This document shows positions 4,018 to 64,000 of a stretch of DNA of 64,000 nucleotides, piece by piece. The notes below the pieces were generated by a model. It saw nothing but the letters and a program-made list of their open reading frames with translations. It was not told the origin of the DNA and did not search any database. Both the position numbers and the translations under genes were made by a program. Source of the DNA: Mesodorylaimus sp. YZB2_4 (taxonomy: Eukaryota; Nematoda; Enoplea; Dorylaimida; Dorylaimidae); assembly GCA_030248295.1 (NCBI GenBank), contig JASANH010000674.1, forward strand, positions 1 through 64,000, given 5' to 3'. Numbering within the stretch: the stretch's first letter is position 1; every line of letters begins with the position of its first letter.

Positions 4018-4570
4018 TAGTTGTAATGCGTTCAGCTTTTATCAGCTGGAGCTAAAACTGAGCTCGGGCAATTTGGACAAGTGTCCAGAATTAAGAACGA
4101 GAACAGCTCGCAGAACGCATTAGAAGTCGCAAAAACAGTGATAAAATTAAAGCTTCGACACCAAATTTTCTTCCAGCAGATATCCGCGCGATCTCGTTGA
4201 TGCGTTGCAGGCATAGTCTCAATGGGTGTTTCCGCCGAGCAAACGTTGGTTTGTTTGTACTCTTCCTCCCCTCCTTCCCTTCCTCCCTATTCTCAATCTC
4301 AAAAAATGCAATGTAGCTCAAAAATGCACATTCCCATCCGTCTCATTCTCACAAATGTTTCTCATTATACAACGGAAATCTTCCAAGACAATGTGTAAAA
4401 GGAGATGAAGCAAATCTCACCTTCGAGCCCACTATCTTGTCATATTCGCTACTTGTATGGATTTGAGCCAATACTGCCCCCTGGTTATGGCAGCTCGTCC
4501 AGGTGGCTTCCCATGTTGATGTCACATTTGTAACAAAAAAGCACCGTGATCCATCCACTACACCTCCCAA
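4018..4570 (-). pseudogene. C-type lectin / PAN-like secreted protein, copy 2 (inverted, decayed)
   Basis: This is a reverse-strand relative of the gene at 178-1143. The lectin exon (about 4415-4570) keeps the pattern SRCFFVT, TW.A.W.SC and GAVLAQIHT..E and ends at a good donor (GTGAGA). The next block (about 4018-4250) is PAN-like with CWKKIWCRSFNF. Three lesions are visible compared with copy 1. One PAN cysteine is replaced by arginine (TGC to CGC). A second cysteine codon near the C-terminus is TGA, a premature stop just before a still-readable THYNYVP tail. Only about 170 bp separates the two blocks, so the second half of the lectin domain is missing. Copy 2 lies inside the large inverted repeat and copy 1 outside it. 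Confidence 0.6.
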
Positions 4571-19987: not shown

Positions 19988-21786
19988 CTAGTCAAGCTCA
20001 ACTAATTCACTTCTTTCAAGCATAATCATTAGGCACACAGAAATGCCCCAGATTTTTGGCTCGAAAATCCTCATTTTCTTTTGTAATTCTTTTGTAATGC
20101 TTTTGTAATCGCTCCAAAGCTGCTGTCGTTTCGCGCGATTCGATGTCTTCTGAAGTTGGAGTTCAAAACAGTCCATAATTTCGACAAATTTTCTAAACAG
20201 GCCTCGAAATGCTTCAGGTAGCTGTCCTCTTGTATTGCGAGGGATCCAATTGACGAGAACCCGAAGTTTGGCTGCAAGAAACGGGATCCAAGTTTCTAGT
20301 ATATCGCCGCCATACTGATGCTTGATTCCAAACATAGAGGCCAGGAGATAAGTTCGCATATTAGCGCGAAGTTGTATTATCGTGAACAGAAATTCATCTC
20401 TTTCTGACAACCTGGAAAAACAAACTTGCGAAAAAATTAGGAGACACAGAAGAACGGGCTCTTACTTTCGTCTCCTCTTTCTGACCGCCATGTCTCCTTT
20501 GCCAAGGGCCAATTTTTCAGCATCTTCTTTTAAGTACAAATCGTAAAGCCTGTTGATGATTACAAAGGACGGAAAGCCAGTCTAAGCCTTTGTTTCTTCG
20601 TTATTGTTTTCGATTCTTTCCCAACAAAAAACTTTTCCTTCATGGTTTTTTGCAGCTCCTTTAGAGCATCCTGATACCTAAAAGTGAAACATGCAAGATT
20701 TATAAAATAGCAGCTTTTAGGGGAACAACTCAATCCTAATGACAAAAAAGCGGGTCTGCAAATGGTAGTAAAATAACGGAAAGGGGCCCTGGGCTTGGAT
20801 GGCGAAACATTTGTCAGGTTACACATGTTTCACCCCTCCTCCCCTTCACTTCAAGACCTAGACCACTTTAGCAATACGGGCCGAGGATGGCGCCTGACAG
20901 ACAATCGAAAGCAAGCTTACTTGTTTTCATAATGAATCAACATTTCCACTATTTTCCTATCAGTCATAGATCCCGACAAAGATTGACGACGGATCACATT
21001 TTCCGACATCCTTTTTTCGGGGTCGTTCAATGGCGCTATCGATTCATGCAAAACTTCAATCGGCTCTTCGAGGTCGGAGTCGGTAAATGTTTGATCCAGT
21101 AAGTTTTATGGCGACTGATCACAAAGAAAAGACGTAGAATCTTCATGATGCAGTAATAAGGCCTGTAGCGGGGGTGACTGCACTTGACAGGGAGCCGATG
21201 CTAAACTCAATTCCAATTCCAGTTTTCGACGTTTCGATTTTTGTTCCAATTCTTCAGAAGCCAATCCTTTCCTTCTTTGTGTATCGGGCGTTACAGGATT
21301 CGTCGGGTCGCGATAGGAGGGTTGTTTGGGCGTCAGTCCTTTCACTTTGATTCCACCCTCATCATGGAAAATACGAGCACCAGAAGGTGAAAATTTAGGC
21401 GACTTACGTTCAGCATGCGGAACGATTCGTCTTGCTGTTGTCGGCGGTGGAACTGAAGAATTTGACTTGACCGGCGACGAATTCGCTGGCATCAATCCTG
21501 CTCGTTTTAATAGTAATCGGCGCTGCTTGTGACTCGGGCTGTGAGCCAACAAAGCTTTCTCTAGTTCTGGAATTCGAAGCGTTGGGTGCGGATTTCTGTA
21601 AGTCGGTTTTCCTTCCACAAAATGTTTCGAACAGACCTTGGCGCTCTTGTATGGAACAGAATCATTTCGTCGAATATTTTTGAGCCATGCCTGGCGTTTG
21701 TCTTCGTCTTTCGGAAATAGGAAAAAACTAATTCCTGGGTCATAAGCTTGGCTATTGCAACCAATCACATAACATGAATTCACCAT
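19988..21786 (-). pseudogene. THAP-domain DDE transposase relic
   Basis: The start at 21786 (MVNSCYVIGCNS) begins a THAP C2CH zinc finger: C..C, FPKDEDKRQAWLKNI and VCSKHF, ending in a P-rich RIPE segment. A Ser/Lys-rich linker follows (to 21106). Further downstream TGFPSFVI (about 20540-20580) and the exon LSERDEFLFTIIQLRANM (20410 down), after a short intron with acceptor TTTTTCCAG, match the helix-turn-helix and first catalytic region (VEIMDCFEL, WSDYKS) of the THAP plus DDE_Tnp_4 transposases of the Harbinger/ISL2EU/Kolobok type. The frame shifts near 20580, a stop ends the linker exon, and sequence after WSDYK is unlike the family, so the catalytic core is truncated. The exact superfamily is uncertain. 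Confidence 0.7.
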
Positions 21787-22253
21787 GCCGAAAAACGTTG
21801 AAACGTTTATTTCTTGGCTCAGCGGAACATCAATCAGAAGAAAGGCATACAGGAGCAATTTGCATAAAATTTGCAATCTACAAGAAATATTTTGAGGATT
21901 CAGCATCCGATTTGTGCACAACTTTCAAATTGCCGCCCAAATGTAATGGTCACACTCTGCACAACTCGGATTTGAATCGCGTTGCAGTAAGCAGTGGTGT
22001 TGCTACAGTAGCTAACTCGCAAAGCCATAACACAAATGTCCATAACAATATGAAAGAAGAAGGCGAGGCCAGCTACCATCAAACCAGAAAACAAAGAACA
22101 ACGAAGAGGAAAAGGAAAAGCGAACAGGGACAGCGGAAAAAGAAAAAAGAAAAAAAAGAAAGAGGCACGCAAAATAGACAGGATTCAAAAAAAAACAAAA
22201 ATAATAACAGAGATATAAGTAAGGACCACCCACCCCCGGCCAAACAATAGCAA

Positions 22254-22818: not shown

Positions 22819-25800
22819 TCACTGATCCTCCTTCATGGCCTCGATCAGAGCCCGTATTGGCGAGCTCATCGGTTCAGGCTGCTGGGCTTGGATGGGTTGA
22901 TTGACTGGGCCCTTCATGGGGCAGGGCTCTTCTTGACTCATAGGGGGTGGATGATGCACCATAGGTTCCGTGTCGTGACCTTTGAGGATTTTCAGCAGAA
23001 GCCATTTGATAACGTTCAAGAAGAGTTTGGCTGTGATATACGCACAACATAGTTGCACCCAGATCCAATGGAGTTTGCCTGTAAACTGATCGAGTAGTCC
23101 CATTGGCGTATATCTGCTGGCTGCGTCCAAAATAGCATTCGCTTGTGAACCAGCTGGTTGTCCAACGACTTGGCTCAACTCCCGTAGCGTACTGGCGTGT
23201 TCTTCAACTGAGGCGAAAATGTCATTCAGGCTGATCTGCCCTCGCAGTTCGTCCCTTGTGTACATCAGAAGCGGCTTGTGGATAACAGGTTTGAAGTCGG
23301 CATAGGCTGATAGCGTTGTCGTAAACATAGCGTGGTCAGCTAATGGTCCGTCGTATGGGCGCAGTTCTCCTGAGTGAGCAGAATAAAGAAGAATCTTTCC
23401 ACTTGCATCCTGCAGAAATGTTTCCTGCACTAAATCACATTCTGTGGGCGCAGAGTGGGCGTAAATGATTCTAGTTTTCGGTTCCATGAATCCTGTTGTG
23501 GCCTGCCCATGCACCGTGTAATTTAATGGGACCCATTCTGTACATTTCTTGCCCATGCTGAGAAATGTGTAGCTTTCGACTTGGTTGCATGGCCAGATTT
23601 CTAAGATCGTTCCATGAAGACGACCCATGACGTTGCTGTCGTTGGAAAGCTTCCTGGCGATGAGGGTGGGCTCAGAGTGTGCCAGTAGCATGCTGATCTG
23701 TTGAAGTTCATGAATGGATCGACAAACCGAATAGAAGGCGTGATTCAAGAGCACTTTGAATAAGTACTCTAACCGAGATTCTAGTGCTTGCAGTCGTGGG
23801 GTCACAATGTCACTCTCTCCATTGTCTTCTGCTTGACGTTTAGATCTCCGTAGATCACTCGGCGCGATGACTGAACCCATTGTGATGACAATAGGGATTC
23901 CTTGATCCGTCATTGTTGCTTCTGAGCTGTCGCAAACCGTGACCTTCCCTCGACCATTATTCCAGGTGAATGCCAGTTCATAGTCGTCACTTAGGAATTG
24001 ATTGTCCCAAAGTTTTCCATCGATGGACTTCCAGAACACGTATTCACACTTGGCCGTTTTGTTTATCTTCCATACTAGGGCGCTTTGATCATGTAATGTG
24101 CAGGCCTCCTTCTCGTAGTCGCAGTGCGCGACGTTCGCCAAGTTCGATTCCATGTGGCCATGGTATGATTGGTAGACTTTGCCTTTGATGAGAAAACAAT
24201 TAGTAGTCTCTCTGGCATACCACTTACAGCAGTCCCAAGCATTGCCGCTTGTGTATGGTGGGTCCACACGGTTTTCGGTAAATGCAGAAGTCTCACTCCC
24301 CAATAGTGGGCCCTCCCGACAGCGACGATGTTCGATTATTTCCCAACATTCAGGGGCCATAATTGGGACAGCTTCCTCATTATGGCGTTGTTCCCATCCT
24401 GATTTCGCGAAGTTTGTGTAAGCTTCGACCACAGTTCTGACCTTCGAACACTTGTAGGCAGCGCTGTCGTACTTTGCAATGTTGCGCTTGTAAATGGCGA
24501 CCTTCGCGACATAAACCTTTGTTCGGTCATTGTCCTTCAGCGCGGTCTTGCAATTGTAAGCAGCTATTGTCAGATTCAAAGTGATTTTCGCACTTCCTTT
24601 CTCGCAGAGCAGTGGCTGAGAATTTACTCCAGGCATCAGGAAGGCGCATGTGAGCAAAAGGAGTGCGACAGATGGAATTGACCAAGTTGAACGACTTGAA
24701 GTGAACTGGACGCTGTCAGATGAATCCGTTGTCATTTCTCGAATACGTTGGTTGGCTATAAGTGCGGCCTTGCGTTTAGGGCGTTTCGCTAATGAATTGG
24801 GTACAAGTTTTGGAGTGTTGCCAGTGGTCTCCGTTGGTGGTGCTTCCTTCACTGGGATAGTGCTGGAATCGCTGTCATTGTGAGAAACTTCCAGTGGGTA
24901 CAAATGCAGGATTGCGCGAGTGAGAACTCTTCCAGTTGATGTCTGCACCTTGGCTGCACGAATGGCACCATCGCTGCTTGGAATAAGCTGAACAATCTTG
25001 CCTAATGGCCAGGACCCTCGTGGTGTGTCTTGGTGAATGTGAACAATGTCCCCGATGCTTGGTGATTGAGTGACAGCTGCCCGGCGACTTTGCAGTCTTG
25101 ACTGAGCGCGTTCTCGCATGCTAAGCAGGTAGTCGTCCCGCCACTGCTTCCAAAATGATTGCAGGTGGCGCTCACCCTTGGTCCAGCGTTCCAAAAGTGC
25201 GGCCTTGGATGTCATCCTGTCGACGTAATCCAGATCTGCATCAGCCGTACTGATACCAGGAACGCCAATTTTCGGATTCTGCATTAAGAAATGTGCTGGC
25301 GTTAATGCTTGTCCATCTTGGAAGTCTGACCCGACATGAACAAGTGGTCTTGAGTTAAGCATGGCTTCGACTTCACTGAGGACTGTCTGGAACTGAACAA
25401 ATGTGAGGCACAGATGTTGAATCGATTTGCGAAGTGCGCGTTTGACCAATTGGACCAGACGTTCATACACGCCACCCATCCAGGGCGCACGTTCAGGAAT
25501 GAATGTCCACTTGATGCCCAAATGGTTGATGTAGGAGAGAACCTGGTCATTCTTGGTGAGTTTTCTCCACAATTCATCAATGGCTGACTTGGCTAACTTG
25601 AATTGTGTGGCATTGTCTGAAAGAATGTGTGAAGGTGTCCCACGGCGAGCCACAAAACGACGGAAGGCTAAGAGAAACTGATCGGCTGACATGTCCTCCA
25701 CCAGTTCCAAGTGCATGGCTCTCGTAGCCAAGCAAGTGAACAGTCCGACCCAAACTTTGACTGGAACTTGGTCGCGTTTGACGTAGATTGGTCCAAAGTA

Positions 25801-28800
25801 GTCCAAACCTGTCCACGTGAATGGGGCTGATTCGCGAACTCTGGATGATGGAAATGCTGGCATCGCAGGTGGAGCATATGGACCACCTTCCACCCGTTTG
25901 CATTTCAAGCAAGACTTCACGCATTGGCGAACCACTGAACGACCAGATGGTATCCAAAAATGGTGACGAATTTGCGACAATGTGTGACTCGTCCCGCTAT
26001 GCAGCAGTTTTTCATGAAAGCTGCGAATGACCAATGTCGTGAACCAATGTTTCTTGGGTAGGAGAATTGGAGAGATTGCGTCTGTTTCCAAATTTGCATT
26101 TGTCAATCGACCTTTGCATCGAAGAATACCATCTGCATCCAACCCAATATTCAGATGGTCCTGAACTGGTGTACGCTTGCCCTTCGCAATGGCATGGAAC
26201 ACATCGGCAAAGTTTGTGGCTTGAACATGCTTGATCCACAGTCTTCGCGCGTCATCGATTTCAGTGACTTCCAAATTCTTTCCTGTTGATAAAGCCTTGT
26301 CCTTGGTCCTTTTGATGAAACGAATGCACCAAGCGGTGACACGCAGTAGTGTTGTTAAACTGGAAAACCGAGATGGATCAATGCCAAACGGACCCGTGCA
26401 TGGATTTGTGGCGATCAGTGATGTCTCGAACAAAATATGCTTCTTCTGTTCGGATGAAATAGTCTCCAGTGTTGCGGAATCGATGTTGAACTGATCCAAT
26501 CCCTGGGGCCAGTTGGACTTGTCGTTTATGAGCCATTGGGGTCCGTGCCACCACAAGGAATTGTCGCATAATTCTGTTGCTGAACATCCTCTTGAAACGA
26601 TGTCGGCTGGATTCTGGTCAGTTTGGATGTATCGAAATTGAACATTCGGAATACTCCGTAGTTTCTGGACACGATTGGTGACAAAGACTGACAGCGGCTT
26701 GCTTGAGCGGATCCAATGCAGCACGCACTGCGAATCTGTCCATAAAAACTGCCTTGAAATTTGAATGTTCAGGGACTTCTCGACAAATTGAATCATGATG
26801 CCACCGATCGAGGCTGCCAATAATTCCAAGCGAGGAATTGTAATGGTTCGAGTTGGTGCGAGTCGAGATTTTGAAAACAGGAGATGAGATGATGTTTCTG
26901 ACGTTGACTGGACACGCAGGTAAACGGCAGCACCGTAGGCTTTCTCTGATGCATCTGTGAAGCAGTGCAATTCGTACAGGGGTTGTCGTTCACCATGGAT
27001 TGCTTGTCCTACGTGTCGTGGAGTTGTGATCTGCATGATTTGTTTCAATGATTTGACGATGTGGTACCACGTTTCGGATTGTGATGTTGTCAGTGGATCA
27101 TCCCATCCTTTCTTCTCCAACCACAGACTTTGCAGAAACATTTTGGCTGGAATTAAAGCTGGACCGTGTAACCCCAACGGATCGAAGAACTTGGCAATCG
27201 ATTGCAAAATTGTGCGTTTGGTGGCAGTGAGAGCTGTTGAAATGGTTGACGATGGGGCCATGTGAATTGTATCGGTTTCGGTATTCCATATCATCCCTAA
27301 AATCTTGACTGATTTGGCCGTTGCCCTATCGTCCTCTGGGATGGATTCCATCACTGTTTGATCATTGGAAACCCATTCGCGTAAGTTCATCGATGCTGAT
27401 TTGAAAAGTGTCTTAGCATCCTGGTAAAATTTGATGCCAAGTGCTGTGGAATCTGTTCCGCTGAGCAGATTGTCGACATATAAATCTTGAAGAAGTTTGC
27501 GAGCGAAAACGGATCCATCTTTGAGCAGGTGATGCGTGATGGTACCTCCGAGCAGGAAAGGGCTTGAGATTATCCCGAAAGGCACTCTTGTGAAACGGAA
27601 AACTTGAATGTTGTCCTCGGTATCCAATTTGTCGGGATCTTTGAGCCAAAGGAAACGAGTGACATCCCGTGCGGCTGGCTGAAGGCCAATTTGCAAGAAG
27701 GCCTTTTCGATGTCGGCTGTGATGGCAACTTTGTTCATGCGAAAACGGATCAATAACGAACACAAATCTTCGAGTATGACTGGACCTCTGTTAAGGCATT
27801 CATTGATGCTGGGTAAATCCTTGCGGCATTTGGCTGAACCATCGTAAACTATGCGAACCTTGGTTGTTGTTTTTTCGGGTGTGATGACTGGGTGGTGCGG
27901 TATGTAATGTTTTCGGGTGACGTCACCATCGTTTTCTGGTACCACCTCGATGATGCCGAGTTGCAGTTGTGTGTGAATGATGGTGTTGTACTTGTCCCGA
28001 AGATCTTCATTACCTTGCAGACGTTGCACCAATGATTTCAATCGACCCAAGGCTAACGAGTAATTGGTTGGTAGGCGCTCAACCTTGTCATTCCAGGGCC
28101 AATCGACCATGTAGCGTTGATCCTCGTACTGTATGGATGCATTGAACTGTTCCAACACTGTATCATCGATTGTCGGGTGAGGCGAGTCGTTGATCCCAAT
28201 TGCTTCCAGTGTCCACCAGTCCTCCATATTGACTTGATTTAGGATAGCTTGGTCCGCCTGGATATGAGGAGTTTGACTGGCTGAACTGTCGGTGACTGGA
28301 GTCAGCATGACGGCTGTTGGCTTGTCGTTCCAAAAGGATGTATCTCCAATGCGGCCACTAGCTATCCATCCCAATTTTGATCCGATTAGGTACAGTCCTT
28401 TTGTCATTTCGATTCTTTCGGCGGTGACTAAATCCCAGTAGTAATTATTGCCTACGAGCAGATCGATGACTCTCGTTGATGGGTCCTTCGAAACTGGATC
28501 GGCCATTGGTAAATTTTGGTATAGGACGCTGATGTTCGACATGTCGACTGGCTGGTGATGGATTTCTCCAATCTTCGGTACTGTGTGCGCTAAAAATTCC
28601 ATGGTTCCTCCACCTAACAGCTTCAGTTGCAGCTTGACCACCTTCGTGTCAATACTGACTGCTTTGGATGCTCCGAACGTGTAGATTTCGAGTGTCTCCG
28701 TTGATTGCGATTCAGCTTTCAATTTCTTTACCAATTCGTCGGTGACATAGGTGCGCTGACTGCCACAATCGAGAACCAAGCGAATTTGTACTTCCTGCTT

Positions 28801-29202
28801 TGAACTGGGGCTGCTGATATGGGCACGTGCCGTCTGCAGGATGCCACGGTCGTCCACATTGACCAAGGCACTCTCGGGTTGTTGGCTGGCAATTGATTCC
28901 GTCGACTCCTGACCTGGTGTGTTGAAGACTGGATACGCATTTTCCCTTTTCGGACTCCTTGATGGAAACTTGGTTGGACACAAACTCCGATGGTGAAGCT
29001 TTGTCTTTTTGCAGTAGCAACATGGTTTGTCCGCTTTGCAATCTTTCTGGTTGTGCCCCTCTCGAATGCAAATAAAACATTTTCCTTTGATTTGCTGCTT
29101 TCGAGCTTCGACGGATGTGTGTACTGGACATTCATCCGCCCAATGGGTACCTTGACAGTAGAAACAGCGTCTGGGGGTGGGGGTCCTGTTTTCGGCCCAG
29201 AA
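22819..29202 (-). CDS. pol-env: BEL/Pao pol-env polyprotein
   Basis: One long open frame; the first ATG is at 28983 (2054 aa) but the frame opens at about 29202 and includes the CCHC knuckles CFICIREGHNQKDC and CCYCKKTKLHHRSLC, which belong functionally to Gag. From the ATG: aspartic protease (LVLDCGSQRTYV, ~70-80), reverse transcriptase with YVDN at ~502, RNase H (CFTDASEKAYGA, ~690), integrase with D, D, E at ~1060, ~1120 and ~1172, a BEL-typical C-terminal domain (FWKQWRDDYL), then a hydrophobic signal at ~1444, an envelope-like ectodomain with many cysteines, a furin-like RRSKR at ~1714 and a C-terminal membrane segment at ~1975. No internal stop. YVDN replaces the common YVDD. Env fused to Pol would be released by signal peptidase. 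Confidence 0.9.
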   Translation of the reverse strand, partial: FWAENRTPTPRRCFYCQGTHWADECPVHTSVEARKQQIKGKCFICIREGHNQKDCKADKPCCYCKKTKLHHRSLCPTKFPSRSPKRENAYPVFNTPGQESTESIASQQPESALVNVDDRGILQTARAHISSPSSKQEVQIRLVLDCGSQRTYVTDELVKKLKAESQSTETLEIYTFGASKAVSIDTKVVKLQLKLLGGGTMEFLAHTVPKIGEIHHQPVDMSNISVLYQNLPMADPVSKDPSTRVIDLLVGNNYYWDLVTAERIEMTKGLYLIGSKLGWIASGRIGDTSFWNDKPTAVMLTPVTDSSASQTPHIQADQAILNQVNMEDWWTLEAIGINDSPHPTIDDTVLEQFNASIQYEDQRYMVDWPWNDKVERLPTNYSLALGRLKSLVQRLQGNEDLRDKYNTIIHTQLQLGIIEVVPENDGDVTRKHYIPHHPVITPEKTTTKVRIVYDGSAKCRKDLPSINECLNRGPVILEDLCSLLIRFRMNKVAITADIEKAFLQIGLQPAARDVTRFLWLKDPDKLDTEDNIQVFRFTRVPFGIISSPFLLGGTITHHLLKDGSVFARKLLQDLYVDNLLSGTDSTALGIKFYQDAKTLFKSASMNLREWVSNDQTVMESIPEDDRATAKSVKILGMIWNTETDTIHMAPSSTISTALTATKRTILQSIAKFFDPLGLHGPALIPAKMFLQSLWLEKKGWDDPLTTSQSETWYHIVKSLKQIMQITTPRHVGQAIHGERQPLYELHCFTDASEKAYGAAVYLRVQSTSETSSHLLFSKSRLAPTRTITIPRLELLAASIGGIMIQFVEKSLNIQISRQFLWTDSQCVLHWIRSSKPLSVFVTNRVQKLRSIPNVQFRYIQTDQNPADIVSRGCSATELCDNSLWWHGPQWLINDKSNWPQGLDQFNIDSATLETISSEQKKHILFETSLIATNPCTGPFGIDPSRFSSLTTLLRVTAWCIRFIKRTKDKALSTGKNLEVTEIDDARRLWIKHVQATNFADVFHAIAKGKRTPVQDHLNIGLDADGILRCKGRLTNANLETDAISPILLPKKHWFTTLVIRSFHEKLLHSGTSHTLSQIRHHFWIPSGRSVVRQCVKSCLKCKRVEGGPYAPPAMPAFPSSRVRESAPFTWTGLDYFGPIYVKRDQVPVKVWVGLFTCLATRAMHLELVEDMSADQFLLAFRRFVARRGTPSHILSDNATQFKLAKSAIDELWRKLTKNDQVLSYINHLGIKWTFIPERAPWMGGVYERLVQLVKRALRKSIQHLCLTFVQFQTVLSEVEAMLNSRPLVHVGSDFQDGQALTPAHFLMQNPKIGVPGISTADADLDYVDRMTSKAALLERWTKGERHLQSFWKQWRDDYLLSMRERAQSRLQSRRAAVTQSPSIGDIVHIHQDTPRGSWPLGKIVQLIPSSDGAIRAAKVQTSTGRVLTRAILHLYPLEVSHNDSDSSTIPVKEAPPTETTGNTPKLVPNSLAKRPKRKAALIANQRIREMTTDSSDSVQFTSSRSTWSIPSVALLLLTCAFLMPGVNSQPLLCEKGSAKITLNLTIAAYNCKTALKDNDRTKVYVAKVAIYKRNIAKYDSAAYKCSKVRTVVEAYTNFAKSGWEQRHNEEAVPIMAPECWEIIEHRRCREGPLLGSETSAFTENRVDPPYTSGNAWDCCKWYARETTNCFLIKGKVYQSYHGHMESNLANVAHCDYEKEACTLHDQSALVWKINKTAKCEYVFWKSIDGKLWDNQFLSDDYELAFTWNNGRGKVTVCDSSEATMTDQGIPIVITMGSVIAPSDLRRSKRQAEDNGESDIVTPRLQALESRLEYLFKVLLNHAFYSVCRSIHELQQISMLLAHSEPTLIARKLSNDSNVMGRLHGTILEIWPCNQVESYTFLSMGKKCTEWVPLNYTVHGQATTGFMEPKTRIIYAHSAPTECDLVQETFLQDASGKILLYSAHSGELRPYDGPLADHAMFTTTLSAYADFKPVIHKPLLMYTRDELRGQISLNDIFASVEEHASTLRELSQVVGQPAGSQANAILDAASRYTPMGLLDQFTGKLHWIWVQLCCAYITAKLFLNVIKWLLLKILKGHDTEPMVHHPPPMSQEEPCPMKGPVNQPIQAQQPEPMSSPIRALIEAMKEDQ

Positions 29203-30302
29203 TTAGTCAGCAATGTAGCCGTCGTGGTCTGATGCGGTTGATTGCCCGTTGTCCTCTTCGGATACCCGTTGGTTGCTGTTGGGGACCTGTGATGTGCTGA
29301 AGGCGGTTGTTTGTACCCTGTCGCTGATGGCCGTTGTGCTGATGACTGATGGATGATGGATGATGGATGATGATGCTGTTCGGCTAATTCTCGAGCTTCC
29401 AAAAGTTTCTGAGCGCGATTGCGAAGATTCGGGACTGTCCACGGTCCATCACCGCGATTCTCTTCGAGGCGCATGATGAATTCTCGTGGTAATTTCGAAA
29501 AAATCATGGACACGAAATGAGCATGATTGACATCCTGTCCAAGGGCCTCCAAGGAGCGCAAGTGTTTCTCCAGGATGTCCAATACAACCCGAATGCGGCT
29601 GGTGTGATCCGACGCAGGTTGTATGCCAGATAAAGCCATGTAGTGTGAATTGATCACAATCTGTGGGTCGCCAAATCGTTGCAGGAGAATGGCGACGGCT
29701 TGTGCGTAATTGTCGTTGGTCAAAGCGAGTCCACTGATCGCTGACCTCGCTTCTCCCACCAACTGTCCCCGCAGATAATTGAACTTATCCACTGCGGAGA
29801 GCGACTCGTTGGTGTGCACGGCGGTATTGAATGAATCCCAGAACTCCTGCCAATGCATCACATCGCCTGAGAACTTCCGTAGGTCAATCTTGGGCAATTT
29901 GACATGTAATGCTGCTGATGCTGGTGCTGCTGCCTGGGCCGGTGCTGGAGCTGGAGCTGGATTGTGCAGTCGTTGTCGGTCCTCATTGACGCGGCTGAGG
30001 CATACTGTAAGTTGCTCGATGGTCGCATCGATTTCCATCAGCAATGTTGCATCCGCTTTGGCTACTTCGTCCACGGATTTTTGATCTGCTTCTGTGTTGC
30101 ACTTGAAGTCTAGAAGCTTTTCATGGACCTGAAAAAAAGCATTCCGTCGTGCCTTCAATGTGCTTGTGAAAGTGGAGACGTCCATGAAGTAGGTGTCTCG
30201 CTCTGCCGCTGAAGCGAAACCCAACGTGACTGCTGGCTTCTCAGCCAGTGATTTCTTGATCTCATTGCGCATAGGTCGTAATGAGCGAAGAATAGTGGAC
30301 AT
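28728..30302 (-). CDS. gag: BEL/Pao Gag
   Basis: Begins MSTILRSLRPMRNEIKKS and contains a retrotransposon gag core with LPKIDLRKFSGDVMHWQEFWDSF (in two short parts), FNYLRG.L.G.A, and IFSKLP.EFIMRLEE. It matches the DUF1759/DUF1758-type gag of BEL elements. The ATG at 30302 lies about 330 bp inside the 5' LTR. The meaningful gag frame runs only to about 29190, where two C-runs (the complement of GGGGGTGGGGG, 29173-29183) precede the point at which the zinc knuckles continue in the -1 frame; the tail beyond that, to 28728, is a shadow. So either programmed -1 frameshifting or a one-base indel in the homopolymer joins gag to pol. Confidence 0.85.
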   Translation of the reverse strand: MSTILRSLRPMRNEIKKSLAEKPAVTLGFASAAERDTYFMDVSTFTSTLKARRNAFFQVHEKLLDFKCNTEADQKSVDEVAKADATLLMEIDATIEQLTVCLSRVNEDRQRLHNPAPAPAPAQAAAPASAALHVKLPKIDLRKFSGDVMHWQEFWDSFNTAVHTNESLSAVDKFNYLRGQLVGEARSAISGLALTNDNYAQAVAILLQRFGDPQIVINSHYMALSGIQPASDHTSRIRVVLDILEKHLRSLEALGQDVNHAHFVSMIFSKLPREFIMRLEENRGDGPWTVPNLRNRAQKLLEARELAEQHHHPSSIIHQSSAQRPSATGYKQPPSAHHRSPTATNGYPKRTTGNQPHQTTTATLLTNSGPKTGPPPPDAVSTVKVPIGRMNVQYTHPSKLESSKSKENVLFAFERGTTRKIAKRTNHVATAKRQSFTIGVCVQPSFHQGVRKGKMRIQSSTHQVRSRRNQLPANNPRVPWSMWTTVASCRRHVPISAAPVQSRKYKFAWFSIVAVSAPMSPTNW

Positions 30303-54289: not shown

Positions 54290-54480
54290 CTCGCCTCTGC
54301 TCGCACTTTTTTCTGAATTTCCCACCAGCATGATGTACCTGAACATCTTTCCCGCCTCTGCTCGCGTTTTTTGAATTTCCCTCCAGCGCGATGTACCTGA
54401 ACATCTTTCCCGCCTCTGCTCGCGTTTTTTTGAATTTACCTCTAGCATGATGTACCTGAACATCTTTCCCGCCTCGCTCT
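54290..54480. repeat. ~58 bp tandem array, 3-4 units
   Basis: Units contain CCCGCCTCTGCTCGCGTTTTT then GAATTTCC, CCAGC and ATGATGTACCTGAACATCTT (shown in parts). The two long minus-strand frames across it are repeat artefacts. Confidence 0.85.
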
Positions 54481-54609
54481 CGCGCGCTAAAACGCAAAAC
54501 AAGATTTGCAGTCCAACAAGATTTTATTTACATTTTTTAAAAAATATTTACTCAAATTTACATACAATATTTACAAAGAAATTGTAAAAATTAAATTAAT
54601 GTGTGGGCC

Positions 54610-54800
54610 TTTGAAAAGACCCACACATGCGGCAACCTGGTATTCACCGAATTCGTGGTCAGGTTCGTACGCCGATTATCACCGCAATCCCTTTATTCGA
54701 TATATATATATATATATATAAAGACCCACACATGCGGCAACCTGGTATTAACCGAATTCGTGGAAACCGCATTTTATTGCATCTGCATAAACATTTAGAA
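54610..54800. repeat. Direct repeat around a TA microsatellite
   Basis: GACCCACACATGCGGCAACC with TGGTATT.ACCGAATTCGTGG occurs at about 54617-54658 and 54721-54763, separated by a (TA)n tract. A related HLHKH-encoding segment (TTTTATTGCATCTGCATAAACATT in parts) also occurs at about 54771 and 55030. Confidence 0.75.
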
Positions 54801-55138
54801 CCGCACGCTTTTACTTGACCCAGCAGTTCAGCCTCGCCCAAGGGTAATGGCAGGCGCTCGAGTCTGTTCCACTACATATTTCTCTTCGCTCCTGGTGCCT
54901 GCTGCACTAGTTCTCTTTGTTCCTGGGATTTGTTTATCGAAAAAAAGCTCTGCGGAAGGTGGAATCCCGACGGGTGTTTTGACTACTGCGTTTAAACATT
55001 ATTTTGTAGCATCGCAGAAAAGAAACCACATTTTATTGCATCTGCATAAACATTCCCAACCGCACGTTTTTATTCGACTAACGAATGAGATTCAAGCAGA
55101 TAATAATAATTATAATGGGCAATTTGCAATATTCTTAA

Positions 55139-57790
55139 TTACAACGCATTACAGCACAGGCGGGCACTGACTGGGTGGGTGGCTGGCTGGTTGCTGTGAC
55201 CGACCAGAAAAAGAGGTGCATTGAGGTGTTGGGAAGAAGGAGAGCAGACCAAAGACTGGCGTAGGGAGTGAATGTTGTCAAATGCGACCCCCCCCCCCCC
55301 CCCGAGTCTAGGAGGAGGGCGTTGGTTTACAGCATTAGCACTAGCACCAGCACTAGCGACAGGGCGGGTCGTGGTAGGGCGCCGGGGGTGGAGAATGAAC
55401 CTACGCCGTCGAATGTTGGCCAGGCGGAGAACTTCCGAGACAGAGTGTGGACGACGAAGACCTAGGGCTACAGTATGTTGTAAACGCTGATGCAAACGGC
55501 GAACATCATCGGACGTCCACGAGGTGTATAGCTGACCGCTATGCACTAAAGATTCGAACCAATGCAAAAATGCAAGGATAAGGCGAGGTAACAGGACCAG
55601 ATCGCGGGCATCACGCACTAAGCCTAACCAACGGCGATAAGCGTGAAGCCAGGCGCGACGCCAGTGGCGAAATTCGGCGTGTATGGGTGGAGGTAATAGA
55701 ATTGGGGCGACGCGGGGAAGCTGCGCTAAGGTGGATGGAAATATTATGGGAGAATTGACATTCAAGGATAGGAGAGAGGGGATATGAGTGGTGGACGACG
55801 GCGAGAAATCAAGGGAAGGTCTCGCAGTAGCAGCGGCAGTAGCAGTTTTATCGCAATCAGTGCGGTGAGCACCAGTCGCAATAGCGGCAATGCAAGCCCG
55901 ATTAAGAAAAAGAGAAGAAGAGCTTCCTGTTGCGCTAGAACTGTACTCGATGCAACGGGGTCGACTAGCTGCTGAAGCAGTCGCAATGGCGGCAATCGAA
56001 GCCCGATTAAAGGAGCGCCCTACTGTAGGATCAGGGGTGGCGGCAGCACAGGCCGAATGAACTTGGGGAGTGACCTCGGTTCGAGGGCGTTTAGGGTTAG
56101 GAGTGTTAGAAGCACACGTCCATAATGATGATGACGAGGTTGATGGCGAAAAATCGGGTGGGGGGGCTTCTAAGACGCCGAACCAGTGGCAGATCCGTCT
56201 TCGAACGCAATCCAGGCGTCGATTAAATGAGACTATGAGGACTAGGATTACTAAATTGATGTCCAGGGACGCTTGGGCATCCTGAGACGCGTATTGAAGC
56301 AGGTAGGAAGGGAGGAAACCATCGGATGATGCCCCGTGCCAAGAATGGCTCTGTCCCTGATTGGACTTGTCCAAATCGAGCGAAAAAAGCGTTTTAGCCG
56401 CATCAGCGAGCCCGTTCCCATCATGTCGGTCGAGAGAGCTCTTAAGCTGATAACGCTAGACCTTCTGACCGTCGAGATACATGCTTTCCGGTAAAATCAA
56501 GCCGAAGCTGTTGTGAAGAGCTGAGCAATCGCAGTGCAATGCCCAGCCAAAATGAACCAAGGAAGGGTCAAATAGTAAGCGAAGAAGGGAGTCGGGCAGT
56601 TGAGAGTTTGGGATCGAGGGATTGGTCAGCATTTTACCAACCCAAGAATGAGGTTCGGCTAAGGCGTATAAATCAAAAATGGCTATGAAACAGTCGGGTC
56701 CTCGTGTGTACACACTGAACCAACTGCGTTGTGGTGTGAGGTTCGGATCAAGCCACGCAGCCCAGGTACTGGAATAGCTATACCGAATAGATATACTAGA
56801 ATAGGAATACCTGCAAACCGCAAGAGATCGAAGGCAAAAGGCACGGCGTAGCAAGGGAATCTAAGAGAGACACCCTCAATTAGAAACCTTGGCAGACCTC
56901 TAAACACCCTGAATAGAGGACTGGGCGCAACAAGGCACAATAGGCGCAATGACGCAAAATGAAAATTAGTCAAAAACCCAAAACAAACCCAAACGAAAAT
57001 CGTCGCAAAATACCATATGAGCAGCGTGGAGAGGCATCACCTACCAATCCAGCTTCTCCTCTTGATTAACCCATTGCAAGTGAGCCGGAATAGGCGGAGC
57101 AGTAGAAGCACGTCGACTGGTACTGCTCTCGCTGACCGGAGTCATGGGACGAGAACCAACCACTCGTCCATACTCAATAATCGGCGTATGTCCAGTACGC
57201 CCGAAAGGCGTACCACCAGAAAACGGATCGGGAAAATACATTTCCAGCTCAATAGCATCCAACGACTCCAATCGAGCTTTCCATGCGGCGCGACGATACA
57301 TAAATTGATAGGCGGATCGGGACGCGATCCACTCGTCAGTTGAATTCCAAGTGGCGTTCGACATGTAGTCCAACACCACCCAACGAACAGACGGACCTCC
57401 CGGACCCAGATCCCGCAAACACAAGACGACCTTCGTACCCAACCGCTTAACCGGATAATAGATGACATACCGGTAGATCTCAGTGCGCGGGCACGTGAAC
57501 CGAATAATCGATGGCATACCGAAATGGAGTTCATGGATCCAATCCGCTTTGGACTCCGAAGCGATGACAAACGTGAATTCGGGCCAATCGGCAGGCGGAT
57601 ACACAGGATACTCGAACGGAATAAACGGGAATTCCTCGATCCGCGATGGCACCTTGACCTCGAGAATGGGATCGATTGGTCGAGCCAGGAACGCATCACG
57701 GCTCCAGCGCAACGGCTGAGTCGGGGATCCAGTGGAGGGCACACAGCTGCGCGATCCAGAGAATCGGCCCGGCGAGCCATGGCGAACCAT
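55139..57790 (-). CDS. Spliced retroelement ORF with DEDDy 3'-5' exonuclease domain
   Basis: Exon 1 (57046-57790) starts MVRHGSPGRFSGSRSCVPST; a donor after KLD (GATTG|GTAGGT) and an acceptor (ATTCCAG, ending at 56773) restore frame into TWAAWLDPNLTPQRSW. Exon 2 (56772-55139) carries an RNase D/EXD-type fold: CFIAIFDLYAL, then LVHFGWALHCDCSALHNSFG (motif II D), then GLADAAKTLFSLDLDKSNQG, W, and QYASQDAQASLDI (motif III Y...D). Motif I is not certain. A single TAG at 56456-56458 lies in frame between motif II and GLADAAK. The C-terminus is low-complexity. Such exonucleases trim RNA or DNA 3' ends. Possibly inactive because of the TAG, or expressed by readthrough. Confidence 0.65.
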
Positions 57791-57808: not shown

Positions 57809-60800
57809 TCAAATTCGAGGCGCGGACTCCACATTCGCGGTGCACGCTGTCGGAGCGACCACAGCTGTGGCAGACACAGCCGCAGTCGTCGTGGAAACCA
57901 TAGTGACAGTGATCGAGGAATTGGCACCGCGCGCACCAGCCGAAGGCGAAACGGTAACAACGGCAGGCATCGAAGAAGGTGAACTCGTGGCAGGCACACA
58001 AGTGGATGCCGGAGGTGCGGACGCAGACACACTCACAGTAGGCGCCGTAGCGGATACCGGAGATGCGGGAACCACGGAAGGTGCGGGTGAAGAAGTGTCC
58101 ATATCAGACCAGGGGTCCGATGATCGAGAATAATCGACAACCAGCTTATAACCCGCTGGCGAAGTATACGAATACCCAAAACTCGGCGTGCGCTCAGGCT
58201 CTTCAGAAACGGACGGCAAACCCGAACGCTTCCTACCAGAAGACGAACCCGAGGCACGAGGCGTCGATGAACCAGAGCCATATCGCGAGGACGAATAATA
58301 AGTAGTACGCTGGCGTGACGCGGCGGTCGATGAGGTACCAGCAGCACCACCCCCAGGCGGAGGAGGTGGCGGCAAATCATCATCCCGACGAGAGGACGAT
58401 CGATCAGACCGAACAGTGGAACGGGAACGACGACGTACTCGCCTCCTGCCACCGTCACTCGATCCATCCGCCGGAAGCTCACCTTCCTCCAATCCGGACG
58501 TTGAACCAGCGCTCGACCGAGGGCGCACTGGACGCGGTGCAGGCGGATAGTCCATGGGACAGACGTAGGCGGAATCCGGCAGTGTCTTGAATGGTTGCAC
58601 CACCGGCGTCGTACCCGGCGATCGATACACGTCACGCATTCCTCGCCACATGCGAATAGCGACTGGAATAGGAATAGTCGCTCCAGGGTTCTCGGGGTCT
58701 TGTTGGAGGACAGCCACAAAACGATCGAAATACCCATTCGTGTAAACATTCGCTAAATACTTCAAAAAGATGAGCGATCCTGATAGCATTTCAGGCCGAT
58801 CGAACCCAAGTGGGTGATAATAAACCGAACCTGGCCGATCTGGCAGCGGGAATCCCAAAACAATGGCCAACCGAGAAATGTTGTAGCCCGACGGCAATCT
58901 GGCCCGATGCTGGCAGATCAATGATGAAATCTGCTGCTTGTTACGAGGGACCAGAATCGCACACGTACCATCGGGTGAAGGCCAAAAACTGAAACGTTGC
59001 CCCTCATTAGTATCCCCAGCCAACTTACGGTATTCCGCGTCCATGATTCGGTAGAACGAGTTCTGAACGAACGAAATGAACTCGACAGAGGCGGCCGTCA
59101 ATTCCACGGTGTTGATTGGAAGATCACGGACCAGGTCGTGCTTCTCCACGATGTAATACAGAGACCACAAATGCAGTCCAATGAGTTCCATGGCTGCGGC
59201 CAACAAGAGTCGAGGATTTCGATTCCAAGGCTCTTGGGCTTGAATCACCGTGAGATATTGGCAACACTGGAATTTCCACATGTCGCAACACCAGCGAGAA
59301 ATTGATTCAGGCGAGATCGGAAAACCGCGAAACGAGAGATTCGCCTCGTCCAGCTGGTATACAGGGACGGGCACCAATCGTTGCGATATCGGCATGTCGT
59401 CAGGCGCAAATAAAGGCGAAGTGGTTGCAGCCAATTCTGCAACCGGGAAACCAGGCGTCGTCAACGTAATAGCATCTTGCATGGATAGTACACCCGTGTT
59501 CAGGGACTCGGGCAGCCGATGAACTTGGGCGTACAGTTCCGGAGACGGACGCACTGGACGATCCAAGACATGACCAGTTGCCCGATCGAATGTGCCAAAT
59601 GCCGCGCGACGACTCGTTACCCACGACGCATACTGCTGACTCGGAACTCGATTCCACAAGAACCCGGCCGGATGTAGATACGCGACGAAACGTTCCAACT
59701 TCTGTCGATACGTTTGCGAGTCGGGTTTCAAGGGTACCTGATCTTTCGACGTGGCATCCGGGCGCTGCGACTCGATCCGCAACGTCTCCTTAATCGATGC
59801 CAACACGTCACAGTCCAACCCAGAAGAAGTGGTCTCGTCCTGCCGTCCTACAGGAGCGCTAGCGGATGTAGAACTAGCAACGAGACCCGGCGGACTGGCT
59901 GAAGGGATACCCGGAGGTGGAAAATATCGCAAACCCAACGAATCGCATAGTAGACGTCGCCGTTCGATCAATTCGGATAATCGGCGTCGGGCGATAGTAT
60001 ATTCGGAAACGAGCCGCACGTGCTGATCCGAGATCTTTGACGGATCGTGTTCGATATAAGAATCGTCGACGAATGCGTAGTAGCAGCCAACCTGGGTGCA
60101 GAACCGACATACGGGCAATGCACCAGGGGTGCGTTTCGCAGCGTCGACCAACACAGGCGGCATGGGAACAGACATCACTTCCCGTCGAACCACAGCAGAG
60201 AACCAGAGCGGAGGGCCATGCTGGGACATGTACCACAGATCGTGCAGAGCAATGGTAGCAATACACAGGTCGATGACAGCCAGTCCCCGCGCGACCAAAC
60301 ATCGTTCCAGATCGTCCTGCAAATTGGGAAGATCGTCCATAGTGATAGAAATAGACATACCTGCCGGACGCTGCGTGCAAGGAAATATCGCGTTCAATGC
60401 ACCAGCGAGCGTGTTCGGCGGCAGTTCCAATTTGCGCTGGAATAATTGAGCCAACTGATAGGCGAACGATGCGTGGAAGGCCTTCTCCGTGGTCGGAGTG
60501 CCATACAGTTGACCCATCGACCAAACGTCGTGGAGATAAGCTAAATTCTGGATCATGTTGGGCCGAAGGAATAGCGTATGCTCCAACATACGCAAAGACC
60601 CAAAATCCCAAAAGACCTTACCGATACCATCGTTCAATAACAATGACATAAGCGGCAGTCGATAGATCGGATTAACGCCACTACTTCGAGTATCGATGAC
60701 GATCGTGTCGCCGTTCTTGGCTGCCAACACGATGAAATAGGCCAACGAGATGGGTCCAGAGGGGAACATTCGACCCAATAGATCCAAACTCGAGGGATAC

Positions 60801-61720
60801 TTCACCGGTCGGTATGGGGCGCAGGCCGCGACCACTCGGTCTTCCAATGATTCGGCTTCCATGCGATAGAAAGACGCGCCAGCCACCATGCCAACCAGTT
60901 TGTCCATCGCTGCTTCGGTATCAGTCGCATCAATTCGATCGATATCTTCTGGCGAGGCCATGATGACCACCTCGCCGTCCGTCATGACGCTGTCAAACGC
61001 ATTAGAAAAACTTTCCGGACGGGCCTCACCTGGTCCTGGACGTCCAGTGGTGAACCATGTTTGACCCACCACGTAGACACCGATCGCGCCAGACGTATTG
61101 GAAAAATTCGTCAATCGATCGAACGCAGAATAAACTTCGTCAATTGAAGTCGAGTGCCCAATGTACGTAACAGTAGACCCATCACCCGGGAATACTGGGT
61201 GTCGTTTGTAGACGCGTGCGTAGCAGGCGTGCAATTGCTGAAGAGCCAACGTGTTGGGCAAGGCCGGGCAGGCCCATGCGTGGTACAATTCAGCCCGCAC
61301 TGCCTGATCGGTAACCAACGAACGTGAACTCGGGGACGAAATGTCGTCCTTCTGTAAACGAGAAAGCGAATCACGTAACTTACGTTCGTGCTGTTGTACC
61401 ATGATGTTCCGGCGCTGCAGAGACGTATCCGGAACACCCGAAGCGGAAAATGCAGACGCCGCCATCGCCTTTCGATCGAGATCGTTGACTAATAATTCGT
61501 GTTCGCGAATTTGTTGATCCAATGCGCGGAAAGCCATTTGGTTCTCCGCCGTCAAGAACGAATACGGATCCGAGTGTCCGCGTCCAGGCGTCGGTACGGA
61601 TGGACCGGACACCGGAGGCGATACCACTGTCGAGATCGATTGGCCGGTAGTATCAATAGAGATACTACCCGGCGTGTCGTCCATAGGGGACGTAGCCGGT
61701 GGCGGCCTTTCCTGAGACAT
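57809..61720 (-). CDS. Large retroelement-linked protein, 1303 aa, DnaQ-like segment
   Basis: One uninterrupted frame starting MSQERPPPATSPMDDTPGSI, ending 19 bp before the next gene's ATG. The N-terminal ~100 aa and the C-terminal ~250 aa are Ser/Pro/Arg-rich and disordered; between lie globular parts. Around residues 330-450, AYFIVLAAKNGDTIVIDT, LLLNDGIGKVFWDFGSLRMLEH and later RGLAVIDLCIATIALHDL echo the RNase D/EXD exonuclease layout seen in the next gene, with the Asp of motif II present (WDF) but no complete DEDD set. A cysteine pair C..C (VCRFCTQ) lies near 560. The C-terminal half (LERFVAYLHPAGFLWNRV and on) has no recognised family. Likely an accessory product of the element. Confidence 0.6.
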   Translation of the reverse strand: MSQERPPPATSPMDDTPGSISIDTTGQSISTVVSPPVSGPSVPTPGRGHSDPYSFLTAENQMAFRALDQQIREHELLVNDLDRKAMAASAFSASGVPDTSLQRRNIMVQQHERKLRDSLSRLQKDDISSPSSRSLVTDQAVRAELYHAWACPALPNTLALQQLHACYARVYKRHPVFPGDGSTVTYIGHSTSIDEVYSAFDRLTNFSNTSGAIGVYVVGQTWFTTGRPGPGEARPESFSNAFDSVMTDGEVVIMASPEDIDRIDATDTEAAMDKLVGMVAGASFYRMEAESLEDRVVAACAPYRPVKYPSSLDLLGRMFPSGPISLAYFIVLAAKNGDTIVIDTRSSGVNPIYRLPLMSLLLNDGIGKVFWDFGSLRMLEHTLFLRPNMIQNLAYLHDVWSMGQLYGTPTTEKAFHASFAYQLAQLFQRKLELPPNTLAGALNAIFPCTQRPAGMSISITMDDLPNLQDDLERCLVARGLAVIDLCIATIALHDLWYMSQHGPPLWFSAVVRREVMSVPMPPVLVDAAKRTPGALPVCRFCTQVGCYYAFVDDSYIEHDPSKISDQHVRLVSEYTIARRRLSELIERRRLLCDSLGLRYFPPPGIPSASPPGLVASSTSASAPVGRQDETTSSGLDCDVLASIKETLRIESQRPDATSKDQVPLKPDSQTYRQKLERFVAYLHPAGFLWNRVPSQQYASWVTSRRAAFGTFDRATGHVLDRPVRPSPELYAQVHRLPESLNTGVLSMQDAITLTTPGFPVAELAATTSPLFAPDDMPISQRLVPVPVYQLDEANLSFRGFPISPESISRWCCDMWKFQCCQYLTVIQAQEPWNRNPRLLLAAAMELIGLHLWSLYYIVEKHDLVRDLPINTVELTAASVEFISFVQNSFYRIMDAEYRKLAGDTNEGQRFSFWPSPDGTCAILVPRNKQQISSLICQHRARLPSGYNISRLAIVLGFPLPDRPGSVYYHPLGFDRPEMLSGSLIFLKYLANVYTNGYFDRFVAVLQQDPENPGATIPIPVAIRMWRGMRDVYRSPGTTPVVQPFKTLPDSAYVCPMDYPPAPRPVRPRSSAGSTSGLEEGELPADGSSDGGRRRVRRRSRSTVRSDRSSSRRDDDLPPPPPPGGGAAGTSSTAASRQRTTYYSSSRYGSGSSTPRASGSSSGRKRSGLPSVSEEPERTPSFGYSYTSPAGYKLVVDYSRSSDPWSDMDTSSPAPSVVPASPVSATAPTVSVSASAPPASTCVPATSSPSSMPAVVTVSPSAGARGANSSITVTMVSTTTAAVSATAVVAPTACTANVESAPRI

Positions 61721-62068: not shown

Positions 62069-64000
62069 CTAATACCATCGTCTTCCCAGAAGCTCTCCTA
62101 AGGGAGTCTTGCACGGGGACCATGTGAACCAGTTGGTAGGTGTTTTTGGAGGACTATCCTCAACACTTACTGTAGGCTGTGTCGATGCCAGTTTCAAATT
62201 TTCGAGTTCTTTCAATACTTCACAGATTGCTTTTTTTAACCGACCCTTCTTTGGGCGGTGTCGTTGAGGCAAATACGACTTGATTTTGAGCTTCGTCTGA
62301 AAGTACTCAAGATTAGACTCAAAATCTTTGATACCAGACTCACGGATATAAGCGTATTTGTCCTCATCGACGAAGAAATGCACACAATAAACCTGCTCAG
62401 TATTGATTCGCTTCAATGAGTCAGTGAGGGCCTTCTTGACAGCTGGTTTGGTCGGATCTTCATGAGCGCTGTCTGGACCATAGCCTTGAATTCGTGCTGG
62501 CCACCAGGGGAAGCCAGTGACCTTGGCCCAGACGTATTGACCAACTCGGAAAGGACCACGTTGAGACGCAGGAGCACCAGGATTGGTAGATGCATCAGGT
62601 GCAATACCATCCTGTGTCGAAGCAGATTCCATAGGCGCATCGGAGATGTCTTGGAGAGGCACATGACCTTCCAAACGCTCTGTAGTTTGGACCAAATGCT
62701 GTGGATGCCATCGTTCCAAAGGCTTCGATGTATCTTGCAAATTGCGAATCAAGACGCCAGATTCGCCTAGGACTTTGACCACTTCATATGGACCCAACCA
62801 ATGAAGGCTCAATTTCCTAGACATCCCCTGTTGAAAATGGTAGTTGGGTTTCCGTACCCAGTCACCGACTTTCAACGAAAGCGGGTGGGACTTCTTATCA
62901 TATTGCAATTTCTGACGTAGTTGATTCAGTTCGATACTTTGACGAACGCGTGCATCGATCGTAGCCATACGGAGACGAACTTGATCCACATAATCCGTAC
63001 CAGATTCTGGCGCGGACTGAGGTCGAGATAATAAGGAGTCGAGGGTCGTTGGCGGATCACGGCCATGACACATGATATACGGCGAGACACCAGTTGTTGT
63101 ATGTGGTGTATGTCGATAATGCATCATAATCAGTTGCAATCGGTTATCCCAATTCTTCTGATCGGGTAACACATAGCAAGCCATTGAAAACCCAATCAAT
63201 TTGTTCAGGTTTTCAACGTTGCCATTGCACTGAGGATGATATGGAGTAGTCGATACTTTCTTCACTCCCAGGTCTTTGCAAAGCCTTAAGACCAGCTTTG
63301 AAAGGAAATTGGAGCCACGATCACTAAGTAGAACTCTTGGAGACCCATGGCGGGTAATCCAACCATCTACTAGCAATCGCGCAATCCTGGAAGCTTTCTG
63401 ATCAGGTACTGCATACGCTTCAGCCCATTTGGTGAAGATGCACATGATCACGACGACGAGACGATTGCCATGTTCAGAGATCGGGAAAGGACCTTGAACA
63501 TCAATCGCAATGGTGTCGAAAGGTGCCGTCCGCTTGATGATTTCCATCGGCGGGCGCTCGTATCGATGAGGCGCTTTGTAGCGGGCGCAGATGCTACACT
63601 CGGCACACCATCGTCGTAGATCACGACGCATCGTCGACCAAAAGAACTTACAACGAAGTGCTGAAAATAATCTCTCAAACCCAGGGTGGTTAGCATCCCG
63701 ATGGGCAGCATCGAAAATGAATTGACGTAAATCAGGGGGAATAACCACACGATCATGAATGTGCTTACCCTCAACTAACTTACCCGCATGATTCCATCGG
63801 TGATTCAGGACACCATCCTCGTCCAGAAGATAGTCCTGGGCGAGCTTGGCGATTTTCTGCGGTTGGTTGAGATCACCATCCAAATACGACATGATCGATG
63901 ACAGTTCGGGATCGTCTCGTTGTAACTTTAGTAATGTCTGACGGGACGGGGCATCAGAAACCGTGTCGGACGCAAGTTGTTTGACGTCGATGCCTAATTT
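62069..64000 (-). CDS. pol: Retroelement integrase with C-terminal PWWP domain (5' partial)
   Basis: The open frame runs off the window at 64000 (upstream codons read LKLQRDDPELSSI, the normal RNase H-integrase spacer), so the start is not in the window. In order: zinc-binding HHCC (HRDANHP..., CAECSIC; about 63595-63705), DDE core with D (AIDVQGPF, ~63500), D (LLSDRGSNF, ~63320) and E (CNGNVENLNK, ~63215), GPY/F-type WLGPYEVVKV (~62785), then a linker and a PWWP domain at about 62270-62555: GQYVWAKVTGFPWWPARIQGYG (in parts) with YCVHFFVDEDKYAYI after a helical insert. PWWP domains read methylated histone H3 Lys36 and DNA. A basic C-terminal tail follows. No stops inside. In chromoviruses a chromodomain occupies a similar place. 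Confidence 0.88.
   Translation of the reverse strand, partial: KLGIDVKQLASDTVSDAPSRQTLLKLQRDDPELSSIMSYLDGDLNQPQKIAKLAQDYLLDEDGVLNHRWNHAGKLVEGKHIHDRVVIPPDLRQFIFDAAHRDANHPGFERLFSALRCKFFWSTMRRDLRRWCAECSICARYKAPHRYERPPMEIIKRTAPFDTIAIDVQGPFPISEHGNRLVVVIMCIFTKWAEAYAVPDQKASRIARLLVDGWITRHGSPRVLLSDRGSNFLSKLVLRLCKDLGVKKVSTTPYHPQCNGNVENLNKLIGFSMACYVLPDQKNWDNRLQLIMMHYRHTPHTTTGVSPYIMCHGRDPPTTLDSLLSRPQSAPESGTDYVDQVRLRMATIDARVRQSIELNQLRQKLQYDKKSHPLSLKVGDWVRKPNYHFQQGMSRKLSLHWLGPYEVVKVLGESGVLIRNLQDTSKPLERWHPQHLVQTTERLEGHVPLQDISDAPMESASTQDGIAPDASTNPGAPASQRGPFRVGQYVWAKVTGFPWWPARIQGYGPDSAHEDPTKPAVKKALTDSLKRINTEQVYCVHFFVDEDKYAYIRESGIKDFESNLEYFQTKLKIKSYLPQRHRPKKGRLKKAICEVLKELENLKLASTQPTVSVEDSPPKTPTNWFTWSPCKTPLGELLGRRWY

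Follow-up and report, generated by a model that had tools for sequence, protein, structure and literature searches.

Introduction

Chromoviruses are interpreted as targeting silent chromatin; lentiviruses such as HIV gain access to active genes through a PWWP protein of the host. Here we describe a Ty3/Gypsy long terminal repeat (LTR) retroelement whose integrase ends in a PWWP domain of its own, found in a 64,000-nucleotide stretch of DNA (the window) from the nematode Mesodorylaimus sp. YZB2_4 (contig JASANH010000674.1, positions 1 to 64,000; contig C336 of this 145-Mb genome in our numbering). The hallmark of chromoviruses is described as a chromodomain at the integrase C-terminus (PMC3605345). 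The nematode element resembles them in its Ty3/Gypsy pol and in carrying a chromatin reader at the integrase C-terminus, behind the GPY/F module. Its reader is a PWWP domain, not a chromodomain, and the mark expected for its aromatic cage, H3K36 methylation, goes with active genes, whereas chromoviruses are associated with H3K9-methylated heterochromatin. The PWWP readers of LEDGF/p75 and HRP2 are reported to couple lentiviral integrase to chromatin (PMC4176367, PMC8149907). Here too a PWWP reader is linked to integrase, but LEDGF is a separate host protein that grips integrase through its integrase-binding domain (IBD), whereas the PWWP of the window is part of the element's own integrase. 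The domain also belongs to a different Pfam family from the vestigial chromodomain of the budding-yeast Ty3 integrase, which binds TFIIIB.

Swapping a chromatin- or DNA-binding part to redirect integration has been described for engineered integrase and LEDGF-IBD fusions (PMC8149907); the fusion reported here is similar in kind but natural, and many families of a single genome carry it. LTR elements have been described as rarely fixing extra domains (PMC9289625), and a reported Pot3 insertion in a host PWWP gene is an unrelated case (PMC3978060). Among the papers listed for PWWP and retroelements, in a collection with few subscription journals and no bioRxiv preprints, no title or abstract opening describes a natural integrase-PWWP fusion. 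This fits the first-pass annotation of the sequence, which knew of no described case.

An integrase that ends in a PWWP domain

The 3' part of pol occupies positions 62069..63892 of the reverse strand, a frame of 607 amino acids from the first ATG. It remains open as far as the window edge at 64000 (643 amino acids) and continues beyond it as a 1158-amino acid open frame in the genome. Pfam domains in the window protein, all above curated cut-offs, follow the order H2C2, rve, PWWP. The H2C2 zinc-binding domain covers residues 51-107 (63572..63742, reverse strand; PF17921, 1.5e-15) and the catalytic core residues 122-220 (63233..63529, reverse strand; PF00665, 1.4e-11). The core includes D131 and D191, with E227 just past it, and these three catalytic residues are invariant across a 35-row integrase alignment. 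The C-terminal SH3-like/GPY-F module, at approximately residues 341-405 (62678..62872, reverse strand), is recognised from a motif readable as WLGPYEV, from strands in the confident part of the predicted model, and from fold alignment, in which the model matches the PFV and Ty3 integrases up to residue 405/406. This fold comparison covered only the integrase, and its 50 rows included no PWWP structure.

Behind this module, in the same frame, the PWWP domain (PF00855) spans residues 451-562 (62207..62542, reverse strand; 62204-62542 in the genome-wide scan) with an E-value of 2.5e-13 and a score of 50.8 bits against a gathering score of 25.6. The C-terminal 183 amino acids alone match the profile at 2.1e-14, and a sequence search of solved structures with them retrieved the PWWP domains of DNMT3B (4.2e-8) and NSD2 (2.7e-6). 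The first-pass annotation had read HHCC, DDE and GPY/F parts followed by an in-frame PWWP; the profile matches, the invariant catalytic triad and the GPY/F motif bear this out, and both motifs it quoted, WAKVTGFPWWPA and FFVDEDKYAYI, are present in the protein. It had also named a domain search as the analysis that could overturn the PWWP assignment, and that search returned the strong match above. The chromodomain profile PF00385 has no match in the window protein at E-values up to 1, where only H2C2, PWWP and rve are found. LEDGF and HRP2 have an N-terminal PWWP and a C-terminal integrase-binding domain, a layout that differs from the window protein, in which the PWWP is C-terminal to the integrase and no further domain matches. 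The window PWWP may work like LEDGF without being a LEDGF-family member.

The PWWP-bearing frame belongs to a mobile element

A genome search with the window protein listed 81 matches, the window itself included. Five full-length copies are 90-95% identical to it (on contigs C385, C949, C40, C316 and C465, the last with three stops), several partial copies are 90-98% identical, and a second family is at about 70%. Families are designated below by letters coined in this analysis (A-L, and M), A being the window family. On C48, an unmodified 2153-amino acid frame comprises CCHC, aspartyl protease (26.7 bits, slightly below the cut-off of 28.2), reverse transcriptase (RT), RNase H, H2C2, rve and a terminal PWWP; it is flanked by LTRs of about 190 bp that are 96.9% alike and by a CACT target duplication. 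C514 has a gag frame of at least 835 amino acids followed by a 1743-amino acid pol with PWWP at its end, and no LTR pair was found for it in the 10 kb examined. On C40, the window-family copy is bounded by LTRs of 410 and 427 bp (about 99% alike) and shows the target duplication CTCG. The Ty3/Gypsy pol order of protease, RT, RNase H and integrase, with integrase last, is present in C48 and C514 and fragmentary in the window copy. Stretches resembling a primer-binding site and a polypurine tract are candidates only.

The window copy itself spans 16.5 kb, from 56686 to approximately C336:73219. What is left of its 3' LTR is the last 92 bp (56686..56777, reverse strand), which match the end of the 5' LTR at 98.9% identity; the 5' LTR lies outside the window at approximately C336:72740-73219. 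The 4-bp target-site duplication, TAGC on the element strand, is at 56682..56685 and is matched at the element's 5' end beyond the window; like the C40 and C48 elements, the copy combines TG...CA LTRs with a short target duplication. We considered the 92-bp repeat as a complete short LTR and rejected this, as it is the end of the 410-427-bp LTR. The window copy is decayed: its pol is fragmented, with the break inside RT (L039:1-1545 and 3183-5213), and most of the 3' LTR is missing, so that it is probably a dead element.

Four D-family copies are 98.9-99.7% alike over 0.9 kb, with the similarity ending at the LTR end and the flanks differing, which points to recent, independent insertions. Open reading frames in the 3' flanks of eight D-family copies yielded nothing informative. 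The first-pass annotation had allowed that the PWWP might be a neighbouring host exon or the product of a chimeric assembly, and the window copy by itself could not exclude either. The same frame is, however, found on other contigs, near-identical copies have different flanks, and there are unbroken pol frames that include the PWWP. The presence of the domain in independent insertions and in several families refutes this explanation and shows that the element encodes its own PWWP on the integrase.

Integrase-PWWP genes are widespread in the genome

A PF00855 scan of the genome gave 146 matches, at least 84 of which are preceded, on the same strand and within 1.5 kb, by a whole or partial integrase match. 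The count is a minimum drawn from the integrase matches listed, and five of the 62 matches scored as lacking integrase do show integrase sequence on direct reading (C68:6441, C216:5778, C79:58421, C1 and C325:87229). Within frames of at least 400 amino acids, integrase is upstream in at least 59 of 72. With rve alone as the criterion, the figure is 40 of the 146, at gaps of 599-751 bp; conversely, among the 150 rve matches listed, 40 have a PWWP match behind them. Host genes may account for some of the other PWWP matches.

These loci comprise about 12 divergent integrase-PWWP families (A-L), and in B-L the PWWP was read behind the integrase; in the genome-wide scan, the matches of E, F and H are at or above the PF00855 cut-off. 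A thirteenth family, M, has a PWWP match and a partial integrase match only (33.5 bits), with no rve. Ty3-like integrases with no PWWP match occur in the same genome (for example C53, C28, C231:20872 and C5:1304584) and form a natural control group. Chromodomain matches were also observed about 0.5 kb downstream of rve on the same strand (C682, C268, C851 and C1059), so the genome may hold integrases adjoining chromodomains as well. Several integrase and PWWP matches lie at similar distances from contig ends. Telomere-directed elements were rejected as the cause: the seven ends examined (C78, C174, C123, C334, C779, C58 and C489) start inside retroelement sequence and look like assembly breaks at young repeats, not telomeres.

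Relatives and phylogeny

An integrase-PWWP protein beyond this genome, which the first-pass annotation had proposed looking for, was found in P0016, one of the 67 integrase relatives listed outside the genome. This 627-amino acid protein, on a single 2,580-base contig, has H2C2, rve and PWWP (6.9e-7). No relatives were found in viral contigs in the scans made. A phylogeny of 88 integrase rows, whose members outside the genome are mostly unnamed, groups families A-F, I, J and K with P0016 (support 88/90); G, H and L fall apart from this group, where the branching is not resolved. On the free tree the distribution of PWWP needs four changes (three at least), with C432 and C78 scored as PWWP-less and C271, which has a PWWP-like tail in appearance without a Pfam match, left out. 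A single PWWP group was not rejected by the approximately unbiased test (p 0.27), in which C271 was added and C432 and C78, whose frames are cut off by contig ends, were for that reason counted with the PWWP-bearing rows; a single origin is not thereby shown. We put forward tentatively, as a possibility that we hold to be somewhat doubtful, that PWWP-integrase Ty3/Gypsy elements are a separate major lineage beside the chromoviruses, with a single origin, at least a dozen families and an extent beyond this genome (P0016), whose cage-intact members would steer integration to H3K36-methylated gene bodies without a host tether.

The PWWP codons are under purifying selection

Between the window copy and C385, the PWWP codons show 22.5/71 synonymous and 4.5/259 nonsynonymous changes (p 6.5e-13). 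The direction is purifying in all nine PWWP pairs compared, within and between families, synonymous sites being saturated or nearly so in the between-family pairs. In three close pairs dN/dS is 0.04-0.10 in the PWWP versus 0.10-0.14 in the integrase. The PWWP codons are thus under strong purifying selection. Within the PWWP (62204-62542), the nucleotide identity of the window copy to C385, C40 and C316 drops sharply, from 96-97% to 75-76%. The window copy is therefore a mosaic, and the selection counts compare subfamilies; so sharp a drop at the module is a sign of recombination between them.

Captured host sequences are known in retroelements, and the PWWP could in principle be such a passenger, kept by chance and unused. 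Purifying selection in nine of nine pairs and a layout common to about 12 families and P0016 make this very improbable.

The aromatic cage and the role of the domain

With moderate confidence, we interpret the window as holding the 3' end of a Ty3/Gypsy pol from a radiating lineage, with an integrase that ends in its own PWWP, and the PWWP as tethering the integration complex to chromatin. The domain is likely to be a self-carried chromatin tether where chromoviruses have a chromodomain.

The PWWP cage of NSD2 is described as Y233/W236/F266 (PMC10955146). We aligned one copy from each of 14 families of this genome to NSD2. In the window family all three cage positions are aromatic: F461 and W464, within F461-P462-W463-W464 (codons 62501..62512, reverse strand), correspond to NSD2 Y233 and W236, and F506 (codon 62375..62377, reverse strand) to F266. 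Because this cage is complete, the most likely mark for the window family would be H3K36me2/3 on transcribed genes. The host genome encodes an SRI domain, in two exon-like pieces, a domain typical of Set2.

Several observations weigh against the tethering interpretation or its breadth. The aromatic cage is full in only two of the 14 families, A and B (F/W/F). Family C has Y/W/L; D, E, F, H, I, J, L and M have a non-aromatic residue or His at the first position, followed by W/F; the tryptophan is lost in G (H/L/F), K (F/A/F) and the C271 family (R/L/F). Within family A, the C949 copy has Ser in place of F461. AlphaFold gave no confident fold for the PWWP part, which in this domain family is a five-stranded barrel plus helices (mean pLDDT 39.7 in one run), from alignments of the window with database rows among which P0016 alone also carried a PWWP. 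Integrase and PWWP occupy different frames in the copy of family H that was read. Outside the genome, P0016 (cage positions L/W/F) is the only PF00855 bearer among the 67 listed integrase relatives, and protein searches aimed at PWWP alone found no relative. The first-pass annotation's claim of cage-forming aromatics therefore holds for the window family and fails for the lineage, where most sister families are incomplete; H3K36-methyl reading is plausible for the former and unproven for the latter. In families that lack the complete cage, binding to nucleosomes or DNA in general is equally likely.

That binding could be the function throughout: the PWWP would be a general DNA or nucleosome clamp, serving integration efficiency, cDNA binding or nuclear retention and reading no methyl mark. 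The domain is kept under selection though most sister families miss at least one cage aromatic, and the HRP3 PWWP is reported to bind the DNA minor groove without sequence specificity (PMC6547440). The three aromatics kept in the window family and in B would, however, be superfluous for DNA binding alone, and we regard a pure clamp as unlikely, if worth serious consideration. More improbable still is a tether to a non-histone partner, comparable to the vestigial Ty3 chromodomain and the TFIIIB subunit Brf1. The integrase position is the same, Ty3 is a described precedent for histone-independent targeting by a reader-type domain (PMC8632968), and the cage is lost in many families. Against such a tether, the cage is complete in the window family and there is no known partner; the three target duplications differ (CTCG, CACT, TAGC), too few for judging target choice.

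Returning to a chromatin tether, the integrase-cDNA complex would, after reverse transcription, bind nucleosomes through the PWWP, with the basic face of the domain on DNA and its aromatic cage on a methylated lysine. Insertion would then take place close to the bound nucleosome. The HRP3 PWWP is reported to hold H3K36me and DNA simultaneously on two faces (PMC6547440). One polypeptide would thereby join what lentiviruses split between integrase and LEDGF/p75.

Other features of the element and the window

Between pol and the 3' LTR lies a third gene, ORF2 (57809..61720, reverse strand; 1303 amino acids), which is also present in sister copies. It has 39 genome matches: full or long copies on C609, C903, C367, C316 and C385 share 74-78% identity with it, and sister copies on C622, C682, C830 and C879 about 35-44%. 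The C40 and C159 copies lack it, and most of it is lost from C465. Comparison with C609 (dS 1.27, dN 0.138) indicates purifying selection. ORF2 has one hydrophobic stretch and no match in Pfam or the PDB. We rejected the idea that ORF2 is the gag of another element in tandem: it does not match the gag pieces read, is shared with other copies, and sits within a single unit enclosed by a single target duplication. ORF3 (57041..57790, reverse strand; 249 amino acids), also inside the element, has no Pfam match, and its far part is kept in copies without ORF2. Just past the element, 54309-55078 contains short tandem and spaced direct repeats of 44-58 bp.

Elsewhere in the window, a BEL/Pao element (22819-30302, reverse strand) has a 2054-amino acid frame that includes parts of Peptidase_A17 and of an integrase; close to the end of this frame, a Monjiviricetes fusion glycoprotein is matched at 7.5e-8. 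A Helitron-like fragment (18166-19230, reverse strand; 7e-15) and a THAP-domain frame (21106-21921, reverse strand; 8.5e-14) are also present. In the wider genome, an animal-type, COX1-like stretch at C73:253316-254668 reads through in mitochondrial code 5, as would be expected of an invertebrate host.

Implications

If the tethering interpretation is true, an integrase that carries its own PWWP would amount to a naturally occurring, all-in-one form of the LEDGF route, and retroelements would have taken up chromatin readers of more than one class. Whether the reader alone sets integration preference could be tested within one genome, by comparing PWWP-bearing with PWWP-less and cage-intact with cage-less elements. 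It also raises the question of why a transposon would aim at genes.
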